From Methylococcaceae bacterium (GTDB taxonomy: Bacteria; Pseudomonadota; Gammaproteobacteria; Methylococcales; Methylomonadaceae), in assembly GCA_947506155.1 (NCBI GenBank), contig CANNNV010000008.1, forward strand, positions 1 to 38,704: a stretch of DNA of 38,704 bases, given 5' to 3'. A program made the translations under genes and the position numbers. The notes beneath the pieces were generated by a model that did no database searches, was not told the DNA's origin, and saw nothing but the letters and a program-made list of their open reading frames with translations. Positions 20,112-22,363 of the stretch are shown piece after piece; position 1 is the first letter of the stretch, and each line of letters starts with the position of its first letter.

Positions 20112-20669
20112 ATGAAAAAAATCAACAAAACGCCTTTAGCTGCTGCAATGGGCGCTGCTTTTCTGTCTGCTTTTGCTGCGACTGCGGTTAATGCAGAAGC
20201 CAATCCTTTCGGTATGACTGAATTATCAACTGGTTACATGCAAGTTGCCGCAGCTGAAATGGCTTGCGGCGCAGCCATGGGCGGCATGGAAAAGCCTAAG
20301 ACTGCGGAAGGCGCTTGTGCTGGCAATGTAAAACCTAAAGCAGCCGAAGGCGCAAAAGCGGCTGAAGCTGCCTGCGGCGCGATGATGAAAGACGGAAAAA
20401 TGAAACCGGGCATGGAAGCTGCTTGTGGCGCAATGATGAAAGGTAAGGAAGGCGCGTGCGGCGAGATGATGAAAGGCAAGGAAGGCGCTTGTGGTGCACA
20501 ATGCGGCGAAGGTATGAAAGCCTGCGATGCAGCTAAAACCAAAGAAGGCGCTTGTGGCGCACAAATGAAAGGTTGTGGTGAAGGCATGCAAGGTTGTAGT
20601 GAAATGTCTAAAGGCAAAGAAGGCGCTTGCGGCGACAAAATGAAAGCGAAAGACGCTGCCGGTAAATAA
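20112..20669 (+). CDS. HvfA/BufA-like Cys-rich RiPP precursor (probable metal-binding peptide) with Sec-type signal peptide
   Basis: 185 aa; signal peptide MKKINKTPLAAAMGAAFLSAFAATAVNA; NPFGMTELSTGYMQVA leader-like segment; 12 Cys with four EGACG plus EGACA/EAACG variants. Immediately followed by DUF692 and DUF2063 genes. Confidence 0.88.
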   Translation: MKKINKTPLAAAMGAAFLSAFAATAVNAEANPFGMTELSTGYMQVAAAEMACGAAMGGMEKPKTAEGACAGNVKPKAAEGAKAAEAACGAMMKDGKMKPGMEAACGAMMKGKEGACGEMMKGKEGACGAQCGEGMKACDAAKTKEGACGAQMKGCGEGMQGCSEMSKGKEGACGDKMKAKDAAGK

Positions 20670-20682
20670 TTTTTTCATATTG

Positions 20683-20715
20683 TAGGAGCGGGCGTGGACC
20701 GCTCCTATGTTTTTT
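20683..20715 (+). terminator. Stem-loop plus T-run between precursor and MNIO gene (putative attenuator/terminator)
   Basis: TAGGAGCGG-GCGTGGA-CCGCTCCTA followed by TGTTTTTT. A related imperfect hairpin TAAGAGCTGGGCGTGAACCGCTCCTA follows at 20721-20746. Confidence 0.6.
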
Positions 20716-20771
20716 CAGTGTAAGAGCTGGGCGTGAACCGCTCCTACCCCTCAAATCATAAAGGTGTTCTT

Positions 20772-21608
20772 ATGGACACAACTCAACATCTCGTACACGG
20801 TGCTGGCCTTGGTCTTAGGCGGTCTTTTTTAACTCAAATTGTACAAACGCCTCCCCTAGAGGTCGGCTTTTATGAAGTCGCGCCGGAAAACTGGATCACG
20901 CTCGGCGGAAAATTCGGTAAACAATTTCGCGCGATGACCGAGCGCTTTGCTTTTATTTGCCACGGCTTATCGCTGTCGATAGGCAGTACCGATCCGTTAG
21001 ATGAAAATTTCGTTCGTGAAATCAAGCAGTTCATGGCCGAGCATCAAATCAAGTTTTACAGCGAGCATTTAAGCTATTGCAGCAAGGACGGGCATTTATA
21101 CGACTTAATGCCAATTCCATTTACTTCGGAAGCGGTGACCCATGTAGCCAGCCGAATCAGGCGTGTTCAAGACATTCTGGAACAAAAAATTGCCATCGAA
21201 AACGTATCCTATTATGCGGCTCCTGGCCAGGAAATGGCCGAAATTGATTTTTTCAAGGCGGTTATCGAGGAAGCCGATTGCGATGTACTGCTGGACATCA
21301 ATAATATTTACGTCAACAGCGTAAACCACGGCTACAATGCCGAAGATTTTTTAAAGGCGATGCCGGTACAGCGGGTTGCTTATGCCCACATCGCCGGTCA
21401 TTATCAGGAAGCTGAAGATTTTCTGGTCGACACCCATGGCGCCGATGTGATCGACCCGGTCTGGAAACTGCTAGGCAAGGCTTACCAGCTTTACGGCGTG
21501 TTCCCGACTTTACTGGAACGGGATTTTAATATCCCAGCCCTCGACGAATTGCTCAAGGAAGTCAACACCATCAATACCATACAAGCCGCCTGGGGAACGC
21601 AGCCATGA
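20772..21608 (+). CDS. DUF692/MNIO-family multinuclear non-heme iron oxidase (HvfB/BufB-like)
   Basis: GAGLGLRRSF, FYEVAPENWI, CHGLSLSIGSTDPL, KFYSEHLSYC, IAIENVSYYA, LLDINNIYVNSVNHG, YAHIAGH. Start at internal Met 20772. Confidence 0.93.
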   Translation: MDTTQHLVHGAGLGLRRSFLTQIVQTPPLEVGFYEVAPENWITLGGKFGKQFRAMTERFAFICHGLSLSIGSTDPLDENFVREIKQFMAEHQIKFYSEHLSYCSKDGHLYDLMPIPFTSEAVTHVASRIRRVQDILEQKIAIENVSYYAAPGQEMAEIDFFKAVIEEADCDVLLDINNIYVNSVNHGYNAEDFLKAMPVQRVAYAHIAGHYQEAEDFLVDTHGADVIDPVWKLLGKAYQLYGVFPTLLERDFNIPALDELLKEVNTINTIQAAWGTQP

Positions 21609-22363
21609 AAGTGGATTTCAAAGCCAAGCAGCTTGAATTTGCAGCATTTATCCGCGATCCCGAAAATAATCCACCGCCTGCCGATGTGCCGGAACCGCGC
21701 ATGGCGATGTATCGGGAGCTGTTTTTTAACAATATCGATAATTTTCTGAGCGCAAATTTCCCGGTGTTGCGGGCGATACTAAGCGATCAGCAATGGTTGG
21801 CTTTAGGCCAGGATTTTTTTGCCAAACACGTTTGTCTATCGCCGCATTTTTCAAAAATACCCGAAGAATTTCTGGATTATTTACAAAACGAGCGTGACGG
21901 CTCCGATGATTTTGGCTTTATGCTGGAACTGGCGCATTACGAATGGGTGGAAATGGCTTTATCGATAGCCCAGGAAACGGTCCCAACTCAGCACAGCGCG
22001 GATAATCTGGAAAACCAGTACCTTCGGTTGTCGCCTTTAGCCTGGCCGCTGGTTTATCAATATCCAGTCCAGCAAATATCGCCAGATTTTTTACCTGAAA
22101 CCGAGCCGGATCAACCCACGTTCCTGATTGTTTATCGCAATCTGGAAGACGAGGTTCATTTTATGACTATCACTCCGCTGACTTACCGGTTACTGGAAAT
22201 TATTCAGGAGCAAGAAGGAATTTTGACTAACGATTGCCTGACACAGCTAGCCAAGGAATCGCAGCATCCCAATCCAGACGTGATCATCGCTGGCGGTTTG
22301 CAGATATTAAAAGAGCTGGCTGAAAAGACGATTATTATTTTCTCAAATGTCTTTGTGAGATAG
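21605..22363 (+). CDS. DUF2063 family protein (HvfC/BufC-like partner of MNIO)
   Basis: QLEFAAFIRDPENNPPPADVPEPRMAMYRELFFNNIDNFLSANFPVLRAIL pattern. ATGA overlap with the MNIO gene. Confidence 0.92.
   Translation: MKVDFKAKQLEFAAFIRDPENNPPPADVPEPRMAMYRELFFNNIDNFLSANFPVLRAILSDQQWLALGQDFFAKHVCLSPHFSKIPEEFLDYLQNERDGSDDFGFMLELAHYEWVEMALSIAQETVPTQHSADNLENQYLRLSPLAWPLVYQYPVQQISPDFLPETEPDQPTFLIVYRNLEDEVHFMTITPLTYRLLEIIQEQEGILTNDCLTQLAKESQHPNPDVIIAGGLQILKELAEKTIIIFSNVFVR

Follow-up and report, generated by a model that had tools for sequence, protein, structure and literature searches.

A probable hvfABC-type operon for an exported, copper-buffering modified peptide in a Methylobacter methanotroph

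Within a 38,704-nucleotide stretch of DNA (hereafter the window), we identified an hvfABC-type (captophorin/oxazolin-type) RiPP operon through which a Methylobacter methanotroph probably makes an exported, copper-buffering modified peptide. To our knowledge, copper handling for particulate methane monooxygenase (pMMO) in gammaproteobacterial methanotrophs without methanobactin is poorly explained. A copper-peptide operon that is genus-wide and present in nearly all relatives searched provides a testable candidate in the cultured M. tundripaludum SV96 (L137). An initial reading of the window, made from sequence alone, had proposed three co-directional genes encoding a secreted 185-residue precursor with 12 cysteines, a DUF692/MNIO enzyme and an overlapping DUF2063 partner. 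All three open reading frames were confirmed, and the locus contains the following features:

20112–20669, forward strand: precursor gene (hvfA/bufA-like), 185 amino acids, 12 cysteines, methionine-rich
20112–20195, forward strand: predicted Sec signal peptide, residues 1–28, assigned from sequence, cleavage after V-N-A
20202–20249, forward strand: conserved post-cleavage segment NPFGMTELSTGYMQVA, residues 31–46, shared by Methylococcales orthologues
20502–20597, forward strand: 32-residue module CGEGMKACDAAKTKEGACGAQMKGCGEGMQGC, residues 131–162, spacing C-x6-C-x9-C-x6-C-x6-C
20681–20709, forward strand: intercistronic hairpin in the precursor–enzyme gap, 11 pairs then TTTTTT, terminator/attenuator-like
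20720–20747, forward strand: degenerate second copy of the hairpin's inverted repeat (GTAAGAGCTGGGCGTGAACCGCTCCTAC), assigned from sequence
20772–21608, forward strand: MNIO enzyme, HvfB family (PF05114, NCBIfam HvfB)
21605–22363, forward strand: HvfC family partner (DUF2063 + NGO1945_C, RRE-type; PF09836, PF22106, NF050145)

Consistent with the middle gene encoding an HvfB-type MNIO, its product scored 356 bits against PF05114 (cut-off 25) and 446 bits against NCBIfam HvfB NF003818 (cut-off 360). It fell below the BufB-class cut-off (NF050167, 273 bits versus 310) and far below that of the MbnB equivalog (54 bits versus 325). The most likely start is the ATG at 20772, behind AAAGGTG; the upstream GTG at 20733 is the mechanical start of the open reading frame. 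An AlphaFold model (pLDDT 84) matched the folds of 3BWW, TglH and MbnB with E-values from 1e-22 to 1e-12 (Foldseek: 3bww, 8hci, 7tcr). Conserved iron-ligand residues had been named as a test of the assignment, and we found no variation at His64, His99, Glu143, Asp175, His206, Asp220, His222 or Glu249 among 24 relatives, the most distant of them at 54% identity; these residues share motifs with MbnB in an alignment with 7dz9 – the iron ligand positions being judged from motif context. Arg16-Arg17 and Asp251-Phe252 (ERDF motif) are invariant in the same 24 relatives. Judged by motif context, they sit where FonB has Arg15-Arg16 and Asp249-Phe250, residues that govern substrate choice and catalysis (PMC13097082), and would be their equivalents.

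The third gene product matched PF09836 (84.7 bits), PF22106 (114.9 bits) and NCBIfam HvfC NF050145 (314 bits, cut-off 142), and its closest solved relative is 3DEE. Its start overlaps the MNIO stop as ATGA at 21605–21608, as had been read from the sequence. An HMM search proposed at the outset thus recovered the DUF692 and DUF2063 families but placed the precursor in no family, Pfam or NCBIfam; DUF2282, the mark of bufferin 1, gave no Pfam match in it.

The precursor itself is under purifying selection. Compared with five relatives, it shows a Ka of 0.04–0.08 against a Ks of 0.47–0.96, with 44–68 third-position differences and 12–27 at first and second positions, which shows the frame to be a real gene. 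A 150-residue Phe/His-rich open reading frame runs antisense to it (window 20226–20678, minus strand) and appears to be a by-product of the repeat codons rather than a gene. By inspection, the Sec signal ends in the cleavage motif VNA/EANPF, in which A28 is invariant across 33 orthologues, and cleavage would leave a mature product of ~157 residues. In the NPFGMTELSTGYMQVA segment, P32, F33, G41 and Y42 are invariant among Methylococcales orthologues, and N31, E37, M43 and A46 nearly so. By analogy, the signal region probably doubles as the enzyme recognition (leader) region, a role that comes from HvfA and bufferin work as cited in PMC13419390.

The initial reading had named EGKCG-type precursors as the known MNIO substrates. 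We observed no EGKCG motif in this precursor; its repeats are instead EGACG, EAACG and EMACG. Four exact EGACG repeats are present, and composition-preserving shuffles contained a mean of 0.04 and a maximum of 2 EGxCG motifs (10,000 shuffles). Together with two EAACG, one EMACG and one EGACA, these place eight cysteines (52, 69, 88, 105, 116, 127, 148 and 173) in an E-x-A-C-G/A context; the other four (131, 138, 155 and 162) occur in QCG, ACD, GCG and GCS. Alanine precedes 9 of the 12 cysteines and lysine none. Orthologues from the host genus mix EGKCG and EGACG, so alanine replaces lysine within an orthologous gene. Methionine makes up 11.6% of the mature precursor, against 1–6% in most of the Lys-Cys-rich orthologues that come from other families of the order. 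Two precursor variants occur in related genera (L055, 6515–7234; L060, 3463–4047): one has 18.6% methionine in its mature residues and GGMDMKG repeats, the other is lysine-rich with eight Lys-Cys sites.

Part of the precursor is rigid in length. Among 64 precursors adjoining Methylococcales MNIO genes plus that of the window, 19 carry the CGEGMKACDAAKTKEGACGAQMKGCGEGMQGC module. It is always 32 residues long in these carriers, with all five cysteines, three methionines and several glycines and lysines invariant, and the stretches flanking it vary in length. On the MNIO tree the trait requires about five changes versus 16.6 for shuffled labels, and the window groups with L101 and L102 (support 96/86). 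A module profile matched 41 of 201 family genomes in 8 of 29 genera, four of the 41 being weak or partial matches; across 387 genomes sampled over the class, the window's genome was the only one matched. Structure prediction for the precursor gave no confident fold (pLDDT 47, pTM 0.15), we found no relatives of solved structure, and the protein is probably disordered. The same scores give no support to the beta-helix reported for long EGKCG proteins, which we set aside. That one stretch keeps its length within a length-variable, probably disordered protein hints at a structural function, for example as a metal site. The module is a clear target for metal-site work.

The gap between precursor and enzyme genes also carries a recurrent structure. 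Each of the 28 precursor–MNIO intergenic regions tested, the window's and those of 27 relatives, folds better than the mean of its own shuffles; 26 of them have z < -2, and the window and L040 have -1.7 and -1.0. The Methylobacter stem is mostly GAGGGCATGAT..ATCATGCCCTC; six loci (L035, L054, L056, L058, L059 and L061) keep a stem in the same place although some or all of its sequence differs. Since the stem hardly varies inside the genus, base-pair covariation is weak; the case for the hairpin is made instead by its reappearance, with unrelated sequence, in other species and genera. Among the stems inspected, a U-tract directly 3' is clear only in the window. An origin as a REP element was rejected, as the repeat is single-copy in the genome even at 3 mismatches. 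By inference, the hairpin probably dampens transcription of the enzyme genes, so that precursor mRNA outnumbers enzyme mRNA.

The closest named genomes to that of the window (a 2.86 Mb assembly, 90% complete) are Methylobacter, and a pmoA fragment lies at a contig edge of the same assembly; the host is thus a methanotroph, as had been proposed conditionally. An HvfC-type partner gene is present in all 23 searched genomes of the host genus, and the HvfC model matched 60 of 61 relatives (above cut-off in 53). Judged by this gene content, the operon is a core trait of Methylobacter-type methanotrophs rather than a rarity. Orthologues extend across the family and order, mostly with the precursor directly upstream of the MNIO gene; some Methylococcales loci yielded no precursor by motif search, in several cases because a contig end lies close by.

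The surroundings are not conserved. The window's operon has an Exo_endo_phos gene on one side and a LonB-like protease gene on the other, and at none of the relative loci examined do these two adjoin the operon or each other; an endonuclease III-like open reading frame lies upstream in many relatives. Gene order thus indicates that the operon behaves as a self-contained unit. The expectation that no DoxX-like gene is nearby held: the eight nearby genes scanned all belong to other Pfam families, and the genome's sole DoxX-family match is weak (25.8 bits, cut-off 23.6) and on a different contig. Pfam scans of nearby genes found no copper regulator or copper pump adjoining the operon. We found no stand-alone additional precursor and no Csp-type copper storage protein (PF03860) in the window's genome, and a sigma-70 promoter scan 5' of the operon scored no better than shuffles.

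From the characterized HvfB and FonB enzymes, we infer the following mechanism. The precursor would be synthesized in the cytoplasm, where HvfC would bind its N-terminal signal/leader region, the region through which HvfC-assisted recognition acts (PMC13419390). HvfB, as an iron-dependent MNIO, would strip four hydrogens from each accepted cysteine of the E-x-A-C-G repeats (eight canonical E-x-A-C-G/A cysteines) and join it to the preceding alanine carbonyl, forming 5-thiooxazoles. The sequence-only reading had offered oxazolone/thioamide or thiooxazole products; only the latter stands, as HvfBC and FonBC products are now assigned as 5-thiooxazoles (PMC13097082, PMC13419390). FonBC modified an engineered peptide, EAACGEGACG, and thus accepts alanine before cysteine (PMC13097082), so the lysine-to-alanine change should be tolerated. 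Cys131, Cys138, Cys155 and Cys162, which lie in the module outside EGxCG contexts, are less likely substrates. A charged residue after the cysteine blocks FonBC (PMC13097082), and Cys138, followed by aspartate, is accordingly predicted to stay free and to be the poorest of the four. Sec would then export the peptide, and cleavage would follow residue 28. The product would chelate copper, either in the periplasm or on the cell surface, and so buffer the metal around the copper-dependent methane monooxygenase; the hairpin, by lowering enzyme transcription, would let substrate outnumber enzyme. More speculatively, Methylococcaceae may have evolved a two-part copper peptide serving pMMO, in which thiooxazole EGACG repeats are joined to a largely unmodified 32-residue module forming its own Cu(I) site and an attenuator hairpin sets enzyme dosage; we hold this fuller scheme tentatively.

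Copper buffering has to be weighed against other uses of the same genes. The product could be a secreted copper-acquisition agent – a methanobactin-like chalkophore feeding pMMO under copper limitation. The host's need for copper, indicated by pmoA, and the single MNIO in the assembly, with no separate methanobactin MNIO detected, are consistent with this idea. We nonetheless consider it unlikely: genes for a TonB receptor, an exporter or an MbnC-type protein are absent beside the operon, the product is large (~157 residues), characterized HvfB-type systems react to excess copper (PMC13097082), and methanobactin is associated with acquisition but bufferins and oxazolins with protection (PMC12452194). 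We give similarly little weight to the same chemistry serving mainly to buffer another soft metal or to protect against oxidative stress. Related operons do respond to gold and oxidative stress, fusions to mercury-resistance domains occur in related systems (PMC13097082, PMC12452194), and the peptide is rich in methionine as well as cysteine; however, the characterized relatives named in the literature examined all bind copper (PMC13097082, PMC12538549), and the host's central enzyme is copper-dependent.

Several points count against copper buffering by a modified peptide: the precursor belongs to no Pfam or NCBIfam family and has no confident predicted fold, no gene for a copper regulator, a copper pump or DoxX adjoins the operon, and the neighbouring genes vary. 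The missing EGKCG repeat counts against it too and raises the question of whether the precursor is modified at all. Twelve cysteines in a methionine-rich protein could bind Cu(I) in an unmodified, metallothionein-like form, or a minority of cysteines might be modified now that alanine replaces lysine and no EGKCG site is left. We regard this as the least probable explanation, given that FonBC modifies EAACGEGACG (PMC13097082) and that, across the genus, the precursor is accompanied by intact, conserved HvfB and HvfC, making loss of their use unlikely. A modified, copper-buffering peptide remains our preferred reading, and characterized products of MNIO–partner pairs with EGKCG cores bind copper (PMC13097082; bulbicupramide, PMC12538549).

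The locus shares with the hvfABC/oxazolin operon of Haemophilus influenzae the order precursor–MNIO–DUF2063 partner, a Sec signal peptide on the precursor, and an MNIO and partner that pass the NCBI HvfB and HvfC equivalog models. It differs in that HvfA carries three AEGKCGEGKCG motifs in place of EGACG repeats, and that operon includes a DoxX-like HvfX, which does not adjoin the window's operon (PMC13419390); the window's precursor also has twice as many cysteines (12 versus the six modified in HvfA) and adds a methionine-rich core and the fixed 32-residue module. Among the captophorins (fontiphorin, fonABC; gonophorin, ngoABC; PMC13097082), fon is likewise a three-gene minimum without DoxX, so DoxX is not obligatory. 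The window's MNIO has the Arg-Arg and Asp-Phe residues that set specificity in the Lys-Cys enzyme group, yet its precursor, never with lysine before cysteine, falls outside the three large precursor groups – DUF2282, Lys-Cys (EGKCG) and Cys-Lys (PMC13097082). Similarly, it resembles the Buf_EGKCG/oxazolin precursors (PMC12452194) in Sec signal, repeated E-G-x-C-G, gene order and PME-type 1 partner, but lacks the defining EGKCG that same-genus orthologues retain.

The Microbulbifer bulbicupramide operon mmrABC (PMC12538549) is also obligately conserved across a genus, with an MNIO/DUF2063 pair, a variable number of cysteine repeats and a conserved N-terminal leader; its cassettes are EGKCG (5–8 cysteines) and its host is no methanotroph. 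Methanobactin (MbnABC) shares the MNIO superfamily, copper and a methanotroph host, and the window's MNIO matches the MbnB fold; the window's system differs in its HvfB-class enzyme, exported and protein-sized precursor, DUF2063 partner and lack of an mbn gene set. The machinery is known and widespread; what sets this locus apart is its set of EGACG repeats, its rigid Cys/Met module and the hairpin between precursor and enzyme genes. These three are undescribed in the main-text MNIO-peptide literature examined, and the operon is unmentioned in the methanotroph literature searched for relevant terms; one study does mention hundreds of unclassified precursors, among which similar sequences may already be listed. 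The EGACG repeats provide a natural-substrate test of tolerance at the -1 position, for which the sole measurement so far used an engineered FonA peptide.

We made several further observations in the window and its relatives. A strongly conserved, extended -10-like TTTTGATATGATAAGC-like block lies ~100 bases 5' of the precursor start in most Methylobacter orthologues (L032–L053); the window has a diverged GCATAATAG at this position. The window's genome has another LonB-like protease gene (G000:C65:12467-14843) that appears broken: it was matched as two pieces and contains one TGA and two TAG codons. A second, paralogous operon occurs in further Methylobacter species and in one relative at the order level (L072–L082); its MNIO is ~55% identical to that of the window, and its precursor mixes EGGCSG and EGKCG. 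Neither this operon nor any other second MNIO, methanobactin or paralogous, was found in the assembled portion of the window's genome (90% complete). At L079 and L081, a 44-residue open reading frame (MSLMCNLNGQCSAKKGLCIHEKMMMG...) lies between the precursor and the second-type MNIO, just upstream of the latter. With three cysteines and a hydrophobic tail, and with a similar open reading frame in L045, it is possibly a small membrane component.
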